From: a virus
Length of the DNA: 26,422 nt
Virus record (IMG/VR): IMGVR_UViG_3300006916_000320
Location: 1-26,422 of that record
Direction: 5' to 3' (one strand)
Part shown: piece after piece, positions 5,403 through 26,422 of the stretch
How the letters are laid out: every line of letters begins with the position of its first letter
How positions within the stretch are numbered: position 1 is the stretch's first letter
The notes under the pieces: model-generated
Databases searched by the model: none
What the model was told of the DNA's origin: nothing
Seen by the model: only the letters and a program-made list of their open reading frames with translations
Position numbers and translations under genes: made by a program

Positions 5403-6278
5403 TTACGGGTTGAGTTTTTCTATCAGGTCAACGTTCACGCTCAGGGATTCAAAGTCTGAAAAGTTGATGTCAGAAAGATCGTTATTAAACCGCATAGGTA
5501 AATCAAACTCACAACCACAAGTGACATCTTCATTGGTCTGCGGCCTGGTGTTTACAGTGCCAGCTGATCCGTAGGCAGTGAACCCGGTTGAGTCAATATC
5601 CACCGTGATGGTGGTGCCGGTTACGCTCTGCACCGTACCCCTTAAACCGTTGATTTCGGTCATCCCAACAACACTGGAAATATGTACAGTGTCATCAGTG
5701 ACAAGGGTATGTGATCCAATTGTTAGAACCGCGTTGGCAGCTTGGGTTATACCAGTGATGGTGTAGGTTTTGTTGGCGTCGAAGGTTATCTCACCGGATG
5801 CGTAATCAATGGTAAACCCGTTAGCTTGGGCAACAGGGTTGTTGAAATCATCCCTAATACCCACCAAACCAGTGGTAGACACCGGCTTTCTCAGCCTCCT
5901 GCGAGTTGCAGTTGATACCCCCTCAGTACCATACCATTTTGTCATCTGGTAGACACCGGCAGAAACCAGCGTACAAGCCTGATCATCGAATGTCGGCGTC
6001 ACCGTATTTGCATTGGTCGTGTATTCGGCCAGGTTTTTGACACGAAAGGATGACCCATACATGCCGCCAACCTTGTGGAAGAAATCAACCACCGAAGTCA
6101 TCAGCCAGACCTGTGTCCTTTTGTTAAAGCCTAAACTACAGGATATTTGCGGGTAAGGATGGTGGAGGGACTCGTAACTGTTTCCGCCCCGCGTAATGGT
6201 ATCTTGACCGGAATACTTAGCCCCATTCGATGACCCGTAATCTATAGCCGTCGGGAATCTTTCATCCAGAAAAGCCAT
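5403..6278 (-). CDS. DUF2460 distal tail protein with FCCH-like insertion
   Basis: This 291-residue homolog of GTA orfg12 (DUF2460, distal tail protein) begins FLDERFPTAIDYGSSNGAKYSG and contains the typical SLHHPYPQ and VDFFHKVGGMYGSSFRVKNLAEY segments (residues about 38-86). The C-terminus returns to the family pattern with CGCEFDLPMRFNNDLSDI. Residues about 171-243 look like an extra domain: TGITQAANAVLTIGSHTLVTDDTVHISSVVGMTEINGLRG... DSTGFTAYGSAG. This is the pattern of the ubiquitin-activating-enzyme FCCH-like repeats often found in phage structural proteins, and it accounts for the length above the usual 200-220 residues. The start shares position 6278 with the tape-measure stop. The protein probably forms the ring at the distal end of the tail tube. 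Confidence 0.85.
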   Translation of the reverse strand: MAFLDERFPTAIDYGSSNGAKYSGQDTITRGGNSYESLHHPYPQISCSLGFNKRTQVWLMTSVVDFFHKVGGMYGSSFRVKNLAEYTTNANTVTPTFDDQACTLVSAGVYQMTKWYGTEGVSTATRRRLRKPVSTTGLVGIRDDFNNPVAQANGFTIDYASGEITFDANKTYTITGITQAANAVLTIGSHTLVTDDTVHISSVVGMTEINGLRGTVQSVTGTTITVDIDSTGFTAYGSAGTVNTRPQTNEDVTCGCEFDLPMRFNNDLSDINFSDFESLSVNVDLIEKLNP

Positions 6279-8461
6279 TAGTATCTCCCTGCCTCAGACA
6301 ATGCCTTTTTAACCTGTCTGGCAACTTCTCCGGCTGCCTTCCTGTTTTCCCTTTCGCCGCCGCTACCGTTCACACTGATATTGATGACGTTGCCGCCTCC
6401 CATCATTTTTGATGTTTGATCGCCGCCGACAATAGTGGCTGGCCCCATCACTATTTCGGGTCGTCGCTCACCAGCAATAGCATATTGCCCTGGGCCAACA
6501 GAACCACCCGAATCCTTGAACCCAAGGAAACCGCCTATGGAGCCGACAATGCCGCCGCCCTTGCTTTTGCCGCCTCCACCAGAAAGGATGTCTGTCAGCC
6601 CGAAACTTTCAGCCAGACGCGCAGCAATGGCCTGCGATCCCATCCTTGCCAGCATGTTTCCCCAATCAGAAAGAATGCCGTCGAAATTGCCACGCAGCGT
6701 CCTCTCTACGGTGTCGCCGAACTGGTCTTGAATGTTTCTTGCTGCCTGTTTGCCAAACTCCGACATATCGTCAGAACTTTCCTGCTGAATGCCTGCAAGC
6801 TCCTCTGACATCCTGGCGTTCAGCTTCTGGATCATTTCAAGCTGCTTGGCTGACCCCTCCTCTGTGTTGTTCAAAATCAGGATTAAGCGCCGGTCATAGC
6901 TTTGTTGGATCATTTCCTCTTCGGTGAGAAGGTAGTCCTCTAGTCTTGCAAGTGCCCGCTCATTGGCCTTTCTTTCAGCTTCTGCGGCTTTCTCTGCCTT
7001 CTCCCTGGCTTTCTTTTCGGCATCAGTTTCGCTGCTGCCTTCATCGCTGCCGCCGACCTTGAAACCTGCCAACCTGTCGCCGCCTGCCTCTGCTCTTGCG
7101 GCCTTCTGCTTTTCGTATTCTTCACGGAGATTTTTAGACGCGGCTATCTGGTCGCTAAAGGATTTAACTGCCGCATTGCGTTCGGCTAAAATTCCGTCGA
7201 TGGTGTCAAAGCGGGCCTCCCTGATAGCGGCAAGCCGCGCTTGAACTTCTGCTGACGCCTTGTCAGCAAGGCTTTTAAATCTTGCGTCAACCGCTTCAAG
7301 CTCGGACGCAAGGTCATATTCATTGGATGAAAAAGGGGTGAACGCTTCACGCACCGCAACGGCATAGACTTTCGCCGTGGCTACCAGTTCTTGAAACTTG
7401 AGAACTACGTTATCTTTGAACTGAGCGCCGTAAATCAACCCCTGATCCGCAAAGAACCCAAGCTCAACAGCAAGGATTTTCACTATTGCGCGCAGGTTTT
7501 CCGGCAAGTTACCGAAAGAGTCACGGATATTAAACGCCGCCTGAGTCCCATCACCAGACCACGATATTGCCGCATCGTTGAACAGTTTGGTCAATATATC
7601 GAGGGTGTCCGTTATGTCAGCACCAACACCGTCAAACTTAGAACCCACGGCTGCTATATAGCCCTCAAGCTCCCCTGACGCAAGCTGGTCATTCAGTTCC
7701 TGTAAAGCGCCAATCCCAAGCCTTACAGTGTCCTCTATCGCGTCCCCGATACCCTGCTGGCTAATGTTCAGCCACAGCTTGTCCCATTCATCCCCAAGGT
7801 TTGACAGCGCACCATCGAGACTGTTGACGCGGTTTAACATAGCCCCGGCAAAATCGTTTTCACCGAGATTAATTAAGTATTCCTCAATCTCTGCCGCGCT
7901 TTTTCTGACAGTGGTGGTTATCCCGCGAAACGTAAATGAGACATTGTCGCCTTCTGATCTGGCTTTAATGCCGAACTCTTTTAAACGCTCAAACTCACCT
8001 GTTGCCGCATCTGCCACCGCCTCGATCAACTGATTCAGGTCTTTGCCCATCGCAGACGCTGTGTCGCCGTAGGACGTTAATGCCCGCTCAGACGGGGTAA
8101 GCCCTAGGTTGACAAGCTGAACGAATCCCTTTGTGACCTGCTGTAGATCAAACGGAGTCGTGCTGGCAAAGTCTTGTATCGCCTCAAACGCTACCGCCGC
8201 ACCCTCGGCAGAGCCTGTGGCTGTCAACAGTTGCGCGTTGAGAACGTCAAACTCTCGCGTTACATCTGTCAGCTTTCTAAGACTGAGCACCGCCCCCGCA
8301 AAAACCGCAGCAGGGCCAGCAATGCGCTTGAAAGCACTGGACAGCCTATCGGTTGCCCGTTCTGCCCTTGCACCAGAATCGGTTAATCGGCCCAGCCTTG
8401 TCTGCGCCTTGGCAATTTCTAGGGAGTCAACCCTTAGTTTTAGGCTTGCAAGTTCGTCCAT
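6278..8461 (-). CDS. Tail tape measure protein
   Basis: This 727-residue protein is the longest in the tail module after the tip. The N-terminus is coiled-coil-like (MDELASLKLRVDSLEIAKAQTRLGRL). It is followed by the conserved block ATTPFDLQQVTKGFVQLVNLGLT near residues 100-125, typical of phage tape measures. A charged Ala/Glu/Lys-rich coiled-coil stretch lies near 470-510. The C-terminus is glycine-rich with IAGERRPEIVMGP, a signature of lambda-H-like C-termini. The protein sets tail length; at about 0.15 nm per residue this would give a tail near 110 nm (inference). The 5' end overlaps the end of the frameshifted chaperone frame by 35 bases, the usual gene order. Confidence 0.9.
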   Translation of the reverse strand: MDELASLKLRVDSLEIAKAQTRLGRLTDSGARAERATDRLSSAFKRIAGPAAVFAGAVLSLRKLTDVTREFDVLNAQLLTATGSAEGAAVAFEAIQDFASTTPFDLQQVTKGFVQLVNLGLTPSERALTSYGDTASAMGKDLNQLIEAVADAATGEFERLKEFGIKARSEGDNVSFTFRGITTTVRKSAAEIEEYLINLGENDFAGAMLNRVNSLDGALSNLGDEWDKLWLNISQQGIGDAIEDTVRLGIGALQELNDQLASGELEGYIAAVGSKFDGVGADITDTLDILTKLFNDAAISWSGDGTQAAFNIRDSFGNLPENLRAIVKILAVELGFFADQGLIYGAQFKDNVVLKFQELVATAKVYAVAVREAFTPFSSNEYDLASELEAVDARFKSLADKASAEVQARLAAIREARFDTIDGILAERNAAVKSFSDQIAASKNLREEYEKQKAARAEAGGDRLAGFKVGGSDEGSSETDAEKKAREKAEKAAEAERKANERALARLEDYLLTEEEMIQQSYDRRLILILNNTEEGSAKQLEMIQKLNARMSEELAGIQQESSDDMSEFGKQAARNIQDQFGDTVERTLRGNFDGILSDWGNMLARMGSQAIAARLAESFGLTDILSGGGGKSKGGGIVGSIGGFLGFKDSGGSVGPGQYAIAGERRPEIVMGPATIVGGDQTSKMMGGGNVINISVNGSGGERENRKAAGEVARQVKKALSEAGRY

Positions 8462-20920: not shown

Positions 20921-21277
20921 TCAGTTCCTTAATTTATCGGCGACGTGTTGGGCATCGATGTCGAAGCTGTACCGCCTACGCAGGCGCATAGCGGGGGTTT
21001 TAACGTGCTTCAGCAGTCGCGCAATTTGGGGCACCCGGAGTGCCGCCTTGGATGTCATATCGGCTGGAGTGTCCACCGGCGCCGTCAGCAGGTATTTGTA
21101 ATCTGCCACAGGCCCCGGCAAATCCACCTGCACAAACTTGGGCGGCCCTTCCGCACCGCCCCACACATGATCATCCGGCATGATCACTACGACATCTCCA
21201 CGCTTGTAAGCACCTCTCCTGTCTGTTTCAGGATCAGGGTGCGTGTGATCAACAGCCTTCACTAGCAGCCGTGCCAT
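20921..21277 (-). CDS. Small basic protein following the cytochrome-like gene, unknown
   Basis: This 118-residue protein has a start that overlaps the stop of the cytochrome-like gene as TAATG. The N-terminal half (MARLLVKAVDHTHPDPETD, then GAYKRGDVVVIMPDDHVWG) looks like a beta barrel of the kind found in phage proteins that read K-R-G-D-V-V-x-I. The C-terminal part is strongly basic (ARLLKHVKTPAMRLRRRYSF). No signal peptide or cysteine-based motif is visible, so it is unlikely to share the periplasmic location of its upstream neighbour despite the coupling. Confidence 0.65.
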   Translation of the reverse strand: MARLLVKAVDHTHPDPETDRRGAYKRGDVVVIMPDDHVWGGAEGPPKFVQVDLPGPVADYKYLLTAPVDTPADMTSKAALRVPQIARLLKHVKTPAMRLRRRYSFDIDAQHVADKLRN

Positions 21278-23862
21278 TACTGTGTCGCCCCGCTATCCAG
21301 CCAATCACCTATCGCTTTAAGCTCAACTGCACTTAAGTTCACAGGATGATCGGCACCAAAATCAATATCGTCGTCATACAGGTCGTCGGTACGACCATCG
21401 GTACGCTCGTTCGCGGCTTTCCAGTACAGCAGGCTCTCGCGGGCATACATGTTGTTGACGTATTTGCTAATCATAGGGCGCTGTAAGCCGTATTTTCGCG
21501 TCTCATTGGAGGAGCTGGTCATCTGCACTTTCAGGTTTTCTGGCAGGGCTTTCTGGGAAAAATCCCAAACCAGATTTTGATAATCGTACAGCGGCACATC
21601 ACCGCCGATCGCATGGCAGCTTGTGCATTTCGCCTCAAAAATCGGCTTAATGTCCGTAGCATAAGTAGGTACCGACATAGCTGTAGTTAAATCGAATGCC
21701 GGGGCTGAAAACGCCAGTGATTGCTCGTAGGGGCGGCCTTCTTTGGCATGCAGGTGACAACCCATACAGACGCGCTTCTCGCCCTGCCGCAATGACTGGG
21801 GCACCTGATCGCGCTTGATGATCCGACCGTCAGAATCCACCCCCGCCATAATGTAGGGCGTTTCACAGGGCAGCTCGGCTTTGAATGACTTGTCTGCCAG
21901 CAGTGGCGCATCACCCAGCAGTTTCACCCGGTTGCCAATACTGTTGTCCCAGTTGCGGCTGCGGGTGGTGTTCGGGATGATTTCATAGAAGCGAATAGCC
22001 GCCAGTTCGCTATGGTCGACGGCTTCCATCAAAGACCCGTTATTATCGACAGTTTTGTACTGCTCGTTGAACGAATATCCCGCGTAGTTAAGCGCATCAG
22101 TCGATCCAGCATCGGAACTGGCGATCTGACAGGAGCCGTCATCGGTGTCGACGAGTGCAGGCGTGGGGATGTCTCTTGCTACCACCACACGGGCACCGAA
22201 CTCATGCCATTCAGGTAGATCAACGATCAGTGTCAGATCATCGGGAGACTGGCTGGGAATCACGGTGGTTTTATACAGCCCCACATCGCAGCCAACTTGA
22301 TCACCGATCTTATCGGGTATTCTGGGTATGGCCCTTTCTACTTGTGTGCAGTACCCCATCCCCACAGACAGTATAAGCTGGTTGTCCGGAGTACCTTCCG
22401 GCCATCCCGCTTTGCCCATATAGTTCCCACTGGCGTCTAGGTGGGAGGCTGCATCTTCGGACGTAGACCACACCGCTGCGGCATAGTGCTGCGGATTAAA
22501 GTCAGGGGCCGCTCCTTCAATACCGTGCTTCTCTGGAGTCCAGCAAACCACGTCACCCAAACCGAGGTTGTTGGCCCGGTAGTAGTTCACCGTACAAATA
22601 TCATCGTTGGCGCGCTGGCCAAGGAAGTGCAGCGCCTTGACGGTATTGCTGCGGGGGTTCGACCCGGTGAGGCGGCTTTTATGGGCACCAAGCAGGGCTG
22701 TCATGTCCCCACCACGATAATCCATGCCCATGATCGGCCAGAAGTTGCTGGTGGTACCGGGCCAGTTCACACTACCGTTGTTTGTCCCATACGCAAGGTT
22801 ATGACTCAACCATTGTGAACTGTAGGCCACCCGACCGCTGTTCAACAGGTATGGGTGGAGCGCCGCCGTCACCTCGTGGGGGGAAATATCCACAACGTTC
22901 GAGCCATCCACGTCAGCAATAAATAAACGGGGTTCAGGGGCTTTTGATGTGCCAATGCGATCCAGATACGGTGCATAAAAGCCGTTGCGAGTGGAGCCAA
23001 ACAGCATCTTGCCGTTGGGCAACCATATCGGGGAAATGTCTTTATTGCCCTGATTGTGGGGCCATGCGGTCAGAGACTCACTCGCAATGTCATAGATATA
23101 AATGCGGGCGTCAGTGTTCGAGCCATTGAGCTGCTGGGGCGGGTAGTTGCGATTCTCGGGCCACGGTGGTTTCAGTCCGTCGGCTGAGTAGACAGAGAAG
23201 GCAATCTTTGAGCCGTCCAGTGATGGCATGGCATCGAACGGCACGCAGGGCCGCTCGGCGTTCATACAGTCATAAATGATTTTCTCAGTCCCATCCTCCG
23301 CCCGCAGCACCAACTGACCAGGAGCGTTGAAGCCATCGAACTGGCGACCCACTTCCGGCAGGGAGTCCATGTAGTCCCAGTTGTCGCTGGTGTAGTCGCC
23401 GCTGCTCAGTGCGACCGTGTGCTCACCGTGAGTGCGTGGGACGCGGGTATACACAATGCCGTTATTAATTGGATCAACAGCAGGAGGGCCGGTATCTACC
23501 ACGCAGCCGTCAGCGTCTACCGCTGCATCAGGGTTGGTGCCAGGACAGAAATCGTCATCGTCAAAAACACCATCGCCGTCGGTATCAACAGGGTCAGGCG
23601 GGGGCGTGCCCCCCAGCCCGCGAGTGTCTACCGTGATCCAGCCGCGATCCACTTTATAGATGCCGCCAGGGAGGCCCCATATCTTCTCAATAGCGTTAAT
23701 CTCCGCTATAGAACCGGGCACTCCGGGGACAGGAACCCCACTCTCGTCGGTAACGACCATATTCTCACGGGTTATTCTATTCCCACCAAAGGCATAACAG
23801 CCGATGACAAGCCCAAGGATTAAACCTATGCAGCAATGTATAAGGATTGCTTTGTAGTTCAT
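21277..23862 (-). CDS. HzsA-related lipoprotein with propeller body and two CxxCH haem motifs
   Basis: From ATG 23862 this gives 861 residues. A lipoprotein signal (ILGLVIGC, lipobox Cys22) is followed by a Ca-binding thrombospondin-type loop, DTDGDGVFDDDDFCPGT (93-109) with a matching VDADGC (115-120). A long beta-propeller-like region spans about 136-640 (PSLDGSKIAFSVYS; RIYIYDIASESLTAWPH; SPIWLPNGKMLFGSTRNG). The C-terminal domain has CMGCH (699-703) and CTSCH (746-750), which would bind two c-type haems. Order and motifs resemble proteins related to the hydrazine synthase alpha subunit, a widespread family mostly of unknown reaction; true hydrazine synthesis is not implied. ATG 23862 overlaps the lipase stop as ATGA with AGGA four bases upstream. 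The frame extends 36 codons further, inside the lipase gene. Haem attachment would depend on the host Ccm machinery. Confidence 0.8.
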   Translation of the reverse strand: MNYKAILIHCCIGLILGLVIGCYAFGGNRITRENMVVTDESGVPVPGVPGSIAEINAIEKIWGLPGGIYKVDRGWITVDTRGLGGTPPPDPVDTDGDGVFDDDDFCPGTNPDAAVDADGCVVDTGPPAVDPINNGIVYTRVPRTHGEHTVALSSGDYTSDNWDYMDSLPEVGRQFDGFNAPGQLVLRAEDGTEKIIYDCMNAERPCVPFDAMPSLDGSKIAFSVYSADGLKPPWPENRNYPPQQLNGSNTDARIYIYDIASESLTAWPHNQGNKDISPIWLPNGKMLFGSTRNGFYAPYLDRIGTSKAPEPRLFIADVDGSNVVDISPHEVTAALHPYLLNSGRVAYSSQWLSHNLAYGTNNGSVNWPGTTSNFWPIMGMDYRGGDMTALLGAHKSRLTGSNPRSNTVKALHFLGQRANDDICTVNYYRANNLGLGDVVCWTPEKHGIEGAAPDFNPQHYAAAVWSTSEDAASHLDASGNYMGKAGWPEGTPDNQLILSVGMGYCTQVERAIPRIPDKIGDQVGCDVGLYKTTVIPSQSPDDLTLIVDLPEWHEFGARVVVARDIPTPALVDTDDGSCQIASSDAGSTDALNYAGYSFNEQYKTVDNNGSLMEAVDHSELAAIRFYEIIPNTTRSRNWDNSIGNRVKLLGDAPLLADKSFKAELPCETPYIMAGVDSDGRIIKRDQVPQSLRQGEKRVCMGCHLHAKEGRPYEQSLAFSAPAFDLTTAMSVPTYATDIKPIFEAKCTSCHAIGGDVPLYDYQNLVWDFSQKALPENLKVQMTSSSNETRKYGLQRPMISKYVNNMYARESLLYWKAANERTDGRTDDLYDDDIDFGADHPVNLSAVELKAIGDWLDSGATQ

Positions 23863-24509
23863 AAATTCCTGTTTTCCAGTGCAGCCATATACCGCTCGAT
23901 TCCGTGAGCAGATCGACTGATACCGGATTTCTTGTTTAGATATGTACGCTCGACCGAAGTTGAACCCCAAGGTGGGGCAAACCTGATCCAGTCGTTTTCA
24001 TTTAAATAGGAAGTGGTTGGGATTTTCATGGCCTGGTAGCGTTCTTCCGATTTCCAGTAAAAACTGGCAGGCTCACCAAATACCACCACCTCGGCAACGC
24101 TTAGGTTCATCCACTTTAGGATTGCTGCCATCTGTACTGCCATCGCAGCGCCAAGGCTGTGGCCCGTCAGAATAATGGGCTTGTTGATCTTCACTAGGCG
24201 AAGCGCGTACCGCTCACACCATGAAACCGCAGCACGACCAAAGCCCTTGTGAACTTGTGAGCCGTTAGGCATTGAATAAGGCCAGAAACGAAGGTCTTTA
24301 AATACGTCCCTTGCGTTCCTGATACCGTCAATACTAAAGTTGCCAGCCAAAATTGACTCGCGCATCTCAGTACCACGGCAGGATATCTCTGTATAACCGC
24401 CGCGCTGCCGAACTAAAACGTCATTCTCGGCCACTGACCAAATATCTGTACGGCTTGAATCATAGGCATCGTTGCACAGCACAGCTAGATCGTAGTGTGT
24501 TGGCTGCAT
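23859..24509 (-). CDS. Class 3 lipase-like alpha/beta hydrolase
   Basis: This 216-residue protein has the Lipase_3 layout: oxyanion-region strand EISCRGTE (41-48), lid or loop segment, VHKGFGRAAVSWC (86-98), and nucleophile elbow GHSLG with Ser118. The acid in YLNENDWIRFAPP is Asp173 and the histidine in RSAHGIERYM is His202. All three triad residues are present, so it is probably an active esterase or phospholipase. No signal peptide is visible, so any membrane attack would follow holin opening. It lies in the lysis cassette: the 45-residue lipoprotein gene overlaps its 5' end by 25 bases and it overlaps the cytochrome-like gene by 4. It may degrade host membrane at lysis, though a role in the virion cannot be excluded. 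Confidence 0.82.
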   Translation of the reverse strand: MQPTHYDLAVLCNDAYDSSRTDIWSVAENDVLVRQRGGYTEISCRGTEMRESILAGNFSIDGIRNARDVFKDLRFWPYSMPNGSQVHKGFGRAAVSWCERYALRLVKINKPIILTGHSLGAAMAVQMAAILKWMNLSVAEVVVFGEPASFYWKSEERYQAMKIPTTSYLNENDWIRFAPPWGSTSVERTYLNKKSGISRSAHGIERYMAALENRNL

Positions 24510-24622
24510 GGCGGTATCTCGGTTTGAACGGTGTTGCCTTCAACGGTGACAATATCAATGGTTGTCACAGCAACAGTGCATCCGGTTAAGGCGACGGCGG
24601 TGACAAAAATAAGAAATTTCAG
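24485..24622 (-). CDS. Small lipoprotein (o-spanin-like), probable CTG start
   Basis: A frame of 45 codons opens at CTG 24622-24620, overlapping the endolysin TGA as CTGA, the analogue of the ATGA coupling used elsewhere in this operon. It reads (M)KFLIFVTAVALTGCTVAV, a perfect short lipoprotein signal with lipobox ALTGC (Cys15). About 30 mature residues follow, ending before TAG at 24487-24485 inside the lipase gene. An in-frame stop lies just before the start, so no ATG, GTG or TTG is available. A small lipoprotein right after an endolysin is where Rz1-type outer-membrane spanins lie, but no matching inner-membrane Rz is seen. Confidence 0.58.
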   Translation of the reverse strand: MKFLIFVTAVALTGCTVAVTTIDIVTVEGNTVQTEIPPCSQHTTI

Positions 24623-24933
24623 GATTGCGCTTTTCTTTCGTCAAACTCGACGTGGATATGATCGCTTTCGATCACCACGTCATAGCAGAACCCAAGCCTG
24701 GAGGCGATGGCGCTTGCCACCTGTATGATTTCATCCTGATTTGAGAAATAGTGTGTCCGCAGGTCGATAGCTAGACCCTTGTAATGGTAAGAGTCATCCC
24801 CGTGTTTCCCGTCCGTGATTGAAGTAATAACAAGGTTGTGGCCCTGTAATGCGTACACCTCATTAGCGACGATGGCGGCAATCATGATCTCTGGTCGCAT
24901 GCCAAGCGGGTTAACCCCTTTTTTCAGCATCAT
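24619..24933 (-). CDS. Endolysin, M15-family (VanY/DD-carboxypeptidase-like) peptidase
   Basis: From ATG 24933 this gives 104 residues. The zinc site is clear: SYHYKGLAIDLR supplies His50 and Asp57, and ESDHIHVEF supplies His94, the H-x(6)-D...H-x-H pattern of M15 enzymes. These cut peptidoglycan cross-bridge or stem peptides. The start overlaps the holin's 3' end in another frame, with GGA/GAG upstream; the second adjacent ATG (24930) is equally possible. An upstream ATG at 25041 would add 36 residues that lie inside the holin gene and have no family match. There is no signal peptide, so it depends on the holin. The domain is compact, without a separate wall-binding module. Confidence 0.88.
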   Translation of the reverse strand: MMLKKGVNPLGMRPEIMIAAIVANEVYALQGHNLVITSITDGKHGDDSYHYKGLAIDLRTHYFSNQDEIIQVASAIASRLGFCYDVVIESDHIHVEFDERKAQS

Positions 24934-25228
24934 TTCGCTCGTCCTGCTTATGCATTGAATCCATCTTTGCGTCAAACAGCTTTGATTCGCGCTTGTCACG
25001 GCGATAGAAAACAATGGCCTGTAAGACCAAACTGACAACACCGACGATGATCCCTGCCATCACGCCATAATCGGCAACCGTCATCCAGTTCTGGTCTGTC
25101 ATGGCGGTTTTAGCGGCTCCACTGGCAGCGGCAATACCACCACCAGCAACAGATAGCTTGGGCGTTACAGAGGCAACTACCTGCTCGATTCCTTGAACTT
25201 TCTCTGTAAACAAAGCGCCAATGCTCAA
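24911..25228 (-). CDS. Putative holin (TTG start preferred)
   Basis: This 105-residue protein has one strong membrane segment (VADYGVMAGIIVGVVSLVLQAIVF), a weaker Ala/Gly-rich segment before it (LSVAGGGIAAASGAAKTAM) and a highly charged C-terminus (YRRDKRESKLFDAKMDSMHKQ). The size, topology and position just before the endolysin support a holin. Start choice: TTG 25228 has CAGGAG six bases upstream. An ATG at 25252 in the same frame would add eight residues but abuts a terminator U-tract, leaving no room for a ribosome binding site. If both were used they would make two lengths, a device some holins use for timing. Confidence 0.72.
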   Translation of the reverse strand: MSIGALFTEKVQGIEQVVASVTPKLSVAGGGIAAASGAAKTAMTDQNWMTVADYGVMAGIIVGVVSLVLQAIVFYRRDKRESKLFDAKMDSMHKQDERNDAEKRG

Positions 25229-25252
25229 AACAAACTCCTGATCGGCAGACAT

Positions 25253-25276
25253 AAAAAAACCCCGCTATCTGCGAGG
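25253..25276 (-). terminator. Leader terminator before the lysis cassette
   Basis: On the minus strand CCTCGC-AGATA-GCGGGG is followed by seven T. The six-pair stem contains one G-U pair that works only in the minus-strand RNA, so the element is directional. The U-tract ends at position 25253, next to ATG 25252. It lies about 20-40 bases after the promoter-like sequence and also behind the ASCH gene, so it could end that upstream transcript, attenuate the late one, or both. Confidence 0.85.
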
Positions 25277-25297
25277 CCCAGTATTAGATACTAGTAA

Positions 25298-25326
25298 AGT
25301 GTGGCATATTAGCGCCGTACTGTCAA
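25298..25326 (-). promoter_or_regulatory. Promoter-like sequence for the lysis/late operon
   Basis: On the minus strand TTGACA (25326-25321) is a perfect -35 hexamer; 17 bases further is CACACT (25303-25298), a poor -10. TAATAT (25311-25306) is a better -10 by itself but would need a -35 near 25329-25334 (TGTATA), also poor. Either way the LexA box covers the -35 region. The start point would fall near 25290-25300, just before the terminator hairpin. Confidence 0.5.
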
Positions 25327-25337
25327 GATATACAGTG
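25318..25337. promoter_or_regulatory. LexA operator (SOS box)
   Basis: TACTGTCAAGATATACAGTG fits CTGT-N8-ACAG with both flanks, matching 16 of 20 positions of the enterobacterial consensus. The right half is repeated: GATATACAG occurs at 27-35 and 45-53 past 25300, 18 bp apart, giving a possible second degenerate half-site. It overlaps TTGACA, so LexA would block the promoter until DNA damage. Confidence 0.72.
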
Positions 25338-25399
25338 ATGGATGGATATACAGCTATAACACCCCGTTGCGCTTGACCTGCGGCAAGCGAACAGGAATG

Positions 25400-25687
25400 T
25401 TATGGGGCTTGCAGTATCCGGCCAAGCCTCAGTATATAAACTCGCTCATGTGGAGCGCCCCATTCCTTGCGGCCAAATCCTGAGAAAATTCCATCAAGCT
25501 CAACGGTCACGGTAGGCGAATCTGGCCTGTATCCATTGCGGAATTTAACCGCGTCGTATTCAGGAGCGCAGATGTCTGCGAGGCGGCGGCTCCAATACGG
25601 CTTAATCTCGCGGTATTCTTCGCGCTTCTCGCCACTGGCAATCATGTCAAACCACTGTTTTTTCAGTGTCAGGTGTAGCACTTTCAT
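25400..25687 (-). CDS. ASCH-domain protein
   Basis: From ATG 25687 (GGGG six bases upstream) this gives 95 residues: MKVLHLTLKKQWFDMIASGE, then KREEYREIKPYWSRRL and VKFRNGY, ending ...RVYILRLGRIL. The I-x-x-G-E-K-x-x-E-x-R segment and flanking strands fit the ASCH/PUA-like fold, a small RNA-binding or ribonucleolytic domain. The open frame extends up to 25846 but that part lies inside the Lar-like gene. The function in phages is unknown; RNA handling or nucleotide-modification binding is plausible. It is the last gene before the late control region. Confidence 0.78.
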   Translation of the reverse strand: MKVLHLTLKKQWFDMIASGEKREEYREIKPYWSRRLADICAPEYDAVKFRNGYRPDSPTVTVELDGIFSGFGRKEWGAPHERVYILRLGRILQAP

Positions 25688-25754
25688 AGTTCGCCCCATA
25701 ACAATTGCAATCAGTTCGCTGCGCGGGAAGCTGGCGCTCCCCTGTTGCAGCGGG

Positions 25755-26012
25755 TTATACGGCCTCAGTTCGCTGGTTCCAGTTCTTGGCAGCCGCTTTG
25801 TATAAAAACTCAAACCCGTGGCTAAGTGCCGCATCAGTTCGCTCAATGCGACATGTTTTGCATTTAACCGTTACAGATCGTTTTTTAGTGTGACTATTAC
25901 CCCTGGGCATCACATGCGGATCATCACCGCAAAACGGACAAGACAAAAACTCAATGTCATGTTTATTCCCATCATTATCAGGGTATGGTCGTTCTTTGAA
26001 ATGGTCGTACAT
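25755..26012 (-). CDS. Lar-family (restriction alleviation-like) zinc-ribbon protein
   Basis: This 85-residue protein has the Lar pattern: a CPFCGDDP knuckle (second member CKTC about 23 residues later), then an Ala-rich helix and NWNQR at the end, that is, C-P-F-C-G...C-x-x-C...A...W-x-x-R. Rac prophage Lar relieves type I restriction by enhancing host modification. Most phage homologs are assigned only by this zinc ribbon. Start ATG 26012 has GGAG five bases upstream; the in-frame GTG at 26018 overlaps that ribosome binding site and is less likely. Confidence 0.8.
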   Translation of the reverse strand: MYDHFKERPYPDNDGNKHDIEFLSCPFCGDDPHVMPRGNSHTKKRSVTVKCKTCRIERTDAALSHGFEFLYKAAAKNWNQRTEAV

Positions 26013-26088
26013 AGTCACTCCGTAGTTAATAGCCGTATAACAACGCCATTAAAATTCGACCTCGTACCTCGGCGCTTTATGACAAGGG

Positions 26089-26400
26089 TTATGCCGCCCT
26101 TCTCTTTTCTCTCGCCCAATCCTCTAATGGTTGAGCTGCCTGGTCACACCAACCGTCCAATAGAAGTTTCAGATACCGCCACTGGCTCCCACAATCCCGC
26201 TCAAAGTGCCCCGGTGTATACCCTGCCCTGATAGATAGCTGTGATTGGTCATAGAGCGAGAGGCGACTATTATCGCCATCTGGTGGCCTTTCGTATCGCA
26301 CCTCCCTCATAGCATAGACAGCCAGCTTATCAGCCGATCTAAGCCACCAATCCGGCCTAGATTCCAAACCTATCGTCATGCGGATTATGGGCAACAACAT
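26089..26400 (-). CDS. Unrecognised small phage protein at the right edge
   Basis: From ATG 26400 this gives 103 residues; the frame has no stop up to the window edge, so the gene could start further right. It is rich in Trp and Arg (RPDWWLRSADKLAVYAMREVRYERPP, SQWRYLKLLLDGWCDQAAQPLEDWA) and ends in a basic EKRRAA. There are no zinc cysteines and no membrane segment. Its location before a promoter-terminator pair is where a Q-like antiterminator would be expected, but I see no resemblance to known Q families, so I leave it unnamed. Confidence 0.6.
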   Translation of the reverse strand: MLLPIIRMTIGLESRPDWWLRSADKLAVYAMREVRYERPPDGDNSRLSLYDQSQLSIRAGYTPGHFERDCGSQWRYLKLLLDGWCDQAAQPLEDWAREKRRAA

Positions 26401-26422
26401 AGCCTCGCACTTCGACCTTAAC

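Follow-up and report, generated by a model that had tools for sequence, protein, structure and literature searches.

LexA-type boxes at a candidate antiterminated late promoter in a viral sequence record

The late genes of the virus described here are probably controlled at two levels from one short region: as read from the sequence, host LexA would occlude a Q-dependent late promoter at 25253-25355, and the lysis and virion genes would need both an SOS response and an antiterminator. The window, the whole stretch of DNA that was analyzed, is an entire linear virus record of 26,422 bases. Its minus strand carries nearly all genes, with the lysis, lipase-like and cytochrome-like genes followed by those for terminase, portal, coat and tail. 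From the features set out below we infer LexA binding at 25318-25355 as well as the start site, the identity of the antiterminator, the efficiency of termination and the two-input logic.

In the proposed mechanism, host LexA would occupy two adjoining boxes, at and just upstream of the -35 element, and exclude RNA polymerase. DNA damage would lead to LexA cleavage and open the late promoter, with transcription starting near 25291. Polymerase may then pause at -10-like elements at 25293-25280, and the RNA would stop at 25259-25253 unless a phage antiterminator, made from the early operon and most likely encoded by the Q-position gene, had been loaded at the promoter-proximal pause. Late expression would have two inputs: SOS, with LexA gone, and the early lytic program, with the antiterminator present.

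Promoter, leader and lysis genes

The elements of the promoter module and its neighbors are as follows.

26089-26421, minus strand: C-terminal portion of the Q-position gene, a candidate antiterminator by synteny, cut at the record end
25336-25355, no strand assigned: second, weaker LexA-type box, AGCTGTATATCCATCCATCA in minus-strand reading, 14.3 bits
25318-25337, no strand assigned: main LexA-type box, TACTGTCAAGATATACAGTG, covering the -35; exact CTGTN8ACAG, 17.9 bits
25321-25326, minus strand: -35 hexamer TTGACA, seen in the sequence; perfect and invariant in relatives
25298-25306, minus strand: extended -10, TGC plus CACACT, optimally spaced at 17 bp from the -35; conserved in relatives
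25291-25292, minus strand: predicted transcription start, G or A, placed by distance to the -10
25280-25293, minus strand: candidate sigma-dependent pause elements TAGTAT and AATACT, -10-like hexamers in the first transcribed bases
25253-25279, minus strand: leader terminator GGGCCTCGC-AGATA-GCGGGGTTTTTTT, stem plus T-run, with a conserved fold
25235-25239, minus strand: probable holin ribosome-binding site AGGAG, from its sequence and its spacing to the TTG at 25228
24911-25228, minus strand: holin, the first late gene, with a probable TTG start; PHROG holin matches, E 3e-4
24619-25041, minus strand: probable endolysin, from its position and a weak PHROG endolysin match, E 0.15

On the minus strand the promoter reads AGCTGTATATCCATCCATCACTGTATATC-TTGACA-GTACGGCGCTAATATGC-CACACT-TTACTAGTATCTAATACTGGGCCTCGCAGATAGCGGGGTTTTTTT. 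As the first-pass annotation had observed, the TTGACA, overlapped by the box at 25318-25337, faces the lysis genes. Taken as a hexamer the -10 is weak, and a standard promoter scan missed the promoter because only three of its six bases match the consensus. In the alignment, relatives keep TTGACA and TGC without change and retain CACA(C/A)T, and 12 of the 17 spacer bases between -35 and -10 are conserved; the spacer holds no clear direct repeat. An alternative -10, TAATAT (25311-25306), was rejected, being neither conserved nor paired with a matching -35. The 13-mer TAATATGCCACAC occurs both at the late promoter (25299-25311) and in the leftward early promoter region of a relative (L108, 535-547), and may be merely an extended -10 that the two promoters share.

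The terminator that had been placed shortly past the likely start was borne out, with a stem of nine pairs at 25279-25257, a T-run at 25259-25253 and a predicted terminated transcript of about 35-40 nt. The leader folds at -13 kcal/mol (z -3.0), and neither Rfam nor tRNA scans matched anything in this region. All tested relatives have the terminator fold in their leaders, and in L007 a C-G pair replaces the U-G of the window. Ahead of it, TAGTAT and AATACT are conserved in relatives apart from one A to G change in L003; such hexamers are common, and comparison with lambdoid late promoters makes these candidate sigma-dependent pause elements (PMC6606751). In relatives a second terminator stands about 130 bp beyond the leader terminator, ahead of the holin. 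The window has no second terminator, and from the sequence a deletion from one T-run to the other seems to have removed it together with the intervening stretch.

The probable holin start is TTG 25228 rather than ATG 25252, because the frame from the ATG is broken in L003 and L009. The probable endolysin resembles D-Ala-D-Ala peptidases by eye, and its true start probably lies within the 24619-25041 frame.

LexA-type boxes at the -35 element

We scored LexA-type sites with a matrix of 16 E. coli sites, which score 13.6-26.5 bits on it; the LexA motif of the host is assumed to be this gammaproteobacterial one. The CTGTN8ACAG of the main box occupies 25320-25335 within the 20-mer, and both promoter boxes rank among the three best sites of the window. 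In a Markov null, sites of at least 16 bits arise about once per Mb and sites of at least 14 bits 3.5-5 times per Mb, and paired sites of at least 14 bits within 30 bp did not occur in 20 Mb. One further LexA-like site, at 5672-5691 inside a tail gene, outscores the promoter boxes at 19.3 bits; we rejected it as a real LexA site, as it is coding, is not conserved in the homologue and is probably due to chance.

Two exact copies of GATATACAG lie at 25327-25335 and 25345-25353, and the latter belongs to the AGCTGTATATCCATCCATCA box. Since a pair of boxes is absent from the null, we take the duplication to be the left arms, in minus-strand reading, of two LexA boxes, and on sequence grounds it is best and most simply read as marking a second, weaker one.

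For conservation we aligned five distinct promoters (the window, L003/L009, L005, L007 and L010), from relatives that are few and close. The CTGT and ACAG arms are invariant in all five, and each of the five bases that separate CTGT from the -35 varies, the pattern that a LexA box would be expected to show; invariance of the eight arm positions taken alone has P about 0.12 and is not significant. In the second box, 2 of 20 columns vary. In L010 an extra gene separates the promoter from the last attC-like element; homology with the rest of the relatives picks up again at the second box, so this box belongs to the promoter module.

A LexA-type box also marks a late promoter in another lineage. 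In L045/L065, whose terminase is 64% identical to that of the window and whose Q-position gene is unrelated, a near-perfect LexA box, TACTGTATGCTTATACAGGT (21.1 bits), covers the -10 of the promoter directly behind the Q-position gene, and the T-run of a strong terminator (-19 kcal/mol) comes 60-80 bp later. In related viral DNA totaling 1.18 Mb, sites of at least 16 bits were found only at the window-group promoter, the L045/L065 late promoter and a presumed early promoter of L017. Roughly ten other phages in which a Q-terminator region could be identified lack a LexA box, so the layout does not require one; L045/L065 has one, and LexA control is on these grounds an addition that was apparently gained at least twice. 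A wider scan for LexA-type sites overlapping a -35 with an extended -10 returned 90 stretches, among which those with a terminator had LexA scores of at most 7.8 and those with a good LexA score had no terminator. The geometry of LexA box, -35 and terminator is therefore not widespread. Two other matches were set aside: a pattern match in viral contig L015 is a chance one inside a structural gene, and a CTGTN8ACAG in L050 is a plain hairpin. Separately, the L017 site (1459-1478) is a near-consensus box of 23.1 bits before a small early gene, where LexA may be used at an early promoter. Phage 186 uses LexA at an early promoter with tum.

The boxes could still be a coincidence at an ordinary Q-dependent promoter, with a TTGACAG -35 and an upstream CTGT repeat that LexA does not bind. 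The ACA of the right arm is already supplied by the -35, the rule among relatives is the same layout without boxes, and the higher score at 5672 arose by chance in a tail gene and was not conserved. Beyond what the -35 supplies, the promoter has a correctly spaced CTGT, the G next to the hexamer, the outer bases of the main box, and the second box. Relatives keep the CTGT arm and the G that follows TTGACA while the neighboring bases vary, a second box adjoins the first in a pairing absent from the 20-Mb null, and the late promoter of another lineage is independently boxed. We consider coincidence unlikely. These same box scores, null frequencies, conserved arms and independent case uphold the earlier proposal that LexA-type control acts directly at the late promoter, with binding itself predicted from the sequence.

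It is less likely again that the ligand of the CTGTAYATC repeats is not host LexA but a phage-encoded regulator, which could be an activator or the antiterminator. The copies form a direct repeat besides contributing to a palindrome, the Q21 site is a direct repeat (PMC6606751), and the upstream copy is conserved almost throughout. However, the known sites of Q proteins fall between -35 and -10 and not over or upstream of the -35 (PMC6606751), and the boxed late promoter of L045 follows a different Q-position gene. The first-pass annotation had taken the duplication to suggest a second protein site; a second LexA box fits it better than the site of a different protein.

The phage repressor too uses other operators. 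L009 is one contig of 8.8 kb extending from the cI start to the late promoter and lysis genes; between them lie, in order, cro, a cII-like gene, replication genes, ninB, ninG, a phosphoesterase and the Q-position gene. Its cI-cro operators, GCAAC-N5-GTTG(C/T), are unlike the late-promoter box. In G009, of the L045/L065 lineage, an S24-type repressor faces AT-rich sites that are again unlike the LexA box. With operators of different sequence in both, we rejected the late box as a phage CI operator and retain host LexA as its predicted ligand.

A full cI-like repressor of 120 aa is encoded at L111 257-619, in a phage that shares the cI start. Profile scans found a helix-turn-helix in it and found no S24 self-cleavage domain. 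Because the repressor of this close relative appears without a self-cleavage domain, we considered a broader reading in which SOS would enter at the late promoter and not only through the immunity repressor, late expression would be two-keyed, and LexA would have been gained at least twice; we regard this as possible rather than probable.

The gene in the Q position and antitermination

In L010 and L009 the order ninB-ninG-phosphoesterase-Q-position gene is that of lambda, with the promoter and lysis genes next. The Q-position gene is about 183-189 aa at full length in relatives, L007 for instance having it at 5776-6333. Its product matched no Pfam, PHROG or NCBIfam family, PF06530 included; hhalign against Q21-like relatives gave 2.6%, which is not significant; a PDB profile search gave no match; and its structure model was unusable (pLDDT 36). 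A search for a Q-like gene beyond 26.4 kb, where the record stops, had been suggested. The gene in the Q position lies inside the window (26421-26089), and it has no Q family match.

Six phages with related terminases (about 73-82% identity; L017, L018, L023, L027, L032 and L080) have a strong promoter and one or two terminators in the same place. A PF06530-like gene precedes the promoter in L027 (29.9 bits, above cut-off), and matches below cut-off were found in L018, L026 and L030 (E 5e-5 to 8e-4), with weaker ones in L023 and L032. Because the same layout stands behind PF06530-type genes in relatives, synteny identifies that of the window as a Q-type late promoter. Of the likeness to lambda pR'-tR' that had been claimed, the promoter-leader-terminator arrangement stands and recurs behind Q21-like genes, but the window has no recognizable Q; the product of the Q-position gene is the most likely candidate antiterminator.

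We also weighed whether the terminator merely ends early-operon transcripts arriving from upstream, behind a weak or inactive promoter. Its orientation would stop early transcription as well, and the -10 is weak. On the other hand, the -35 and extended -10 have been kept while surrounding bases vary, and strong promoters precede such terminators in L017, L018, L023, L032 and L080, which makes this reading very improbable beside that of an antiterminated late promoter.

Searches for a cultured phage or GTDB genome near the window found none. Profile searches of genome contigs with the Q-position and terminase alignments found no isolate relative, and in a phage collection the terminase had just distant relatives and the Q-position gene had none. 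The window phage is best read as a lambda-organized, probably temperate tailed phage.

Known systems and neighboring DNA

The lambdoid pR'-tR' regions of lambda, 21 and 82 likewise have a late promoter behind the nin region and a Q-position gene, with lysis genes next, -10-like elements (candidate pause elements in the window) in the first transcribed bases and a terminator downstream. By contrast, the window has LexA boxes on the -35, a leader of just 35-40 nt or so, a Q-position gene unrelated in sequence to known Q families, and variable cassette genes between that gene and the promoter.

Colicin operons have adjacent or overlapping LexA boxes, and their products kill or lyse the producer; unlike the scheme proposed for the window they have no antitermination step, their second control being another host repressor. 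Delayed co-regulation has been described for these operons (PMC6182141). In GIL01, a phage of Bacillus thuringiensis, host LexA and a phage activator control the late promoter P3: as proposed for the window, LexA acts at two boxes on a promoter for lysis and capsid genes, and a phage product is also needed (PMC6182141). GIL01 differs in being a tectivirus whose Gram-positive host has a different LexA motif, and in having its boxes downstream of the -35; moreover its gp6 activates initiation and does not antiterminate, and gp7 assists LexA (PMC6182141).

At the alpB and PA0807 promoters of Pseudomonas aeruginosa, lysis is likewise linked to damage, and the antiterminator AlpA carries polymerase past a terminator 26-54 nt after the start; AlpA, however, binds between -10 and -35, and in that account LexA is unmentioned and damage acts upstream of AlpA (PMC7969949). 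Gifsy prophages also use host LexA as SOS sensor, with terminator-like sequences preceding the LexA box, but there LexA governs a dinI/antirepressor operon near the replication genes and not a late promoter (PMC3121763).

LexA at a late promoter is already known from GIL01, and its joining to antitermination in a tailed phage appears new: in the open literature, with most subscription papers outside the scope of the search, we found no LexA site on an antiterminated tailed-phage late promoter. If the mechanism holds, a host-controlled gate would have been added to the classic antitermination switch. A phage in an undamaged cell could express early genes while withholding lysis for as long as LexA persists, and a prophage could gain double protection against leaky lysis. 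It would place LexA at the late promoter of a tailed phage, the documented case that we found being the tectivirus GIL01, and provide a testable case of coupling between lysis and damage in phages without a RecA-cleavable repressor.

Several features of the neighboring DNA are worth recording. Inverted repeats resembling integron attC sites (TAAC...GTTA) lie on the minus strand at 25354-25405, 25696-25760 and 26035-26094, and also downstream of the Q-position gene in L003, L005, L007, L008, L009 and L010. They separate the members of a variable set of small genes that fills the interval from the Q-position gene to the late promoter; in the window these are Lar-like and ASCH-like, in relatives they are others, and the last repeat is nearly identical across the window and relatives. 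The array resembles the integrase-less cassette clusters already known in phages (PMC9892861).

In L010 (L108-L110) the lysis and promoter region is nearly as in the window, but the terminase-portal-capsid module is unrelated; an integrase and an S24 repressor were looked for in its 38-kb record and not found. The late operon of the window also includes an 897-aa gene (21277-23970, minus strand) with the c-type haem motifs CMGCH and CTSCH and weak similarity to hydrazine-synthase-alpha, and homologues in relatives have about 78-80% DNA identity to it.
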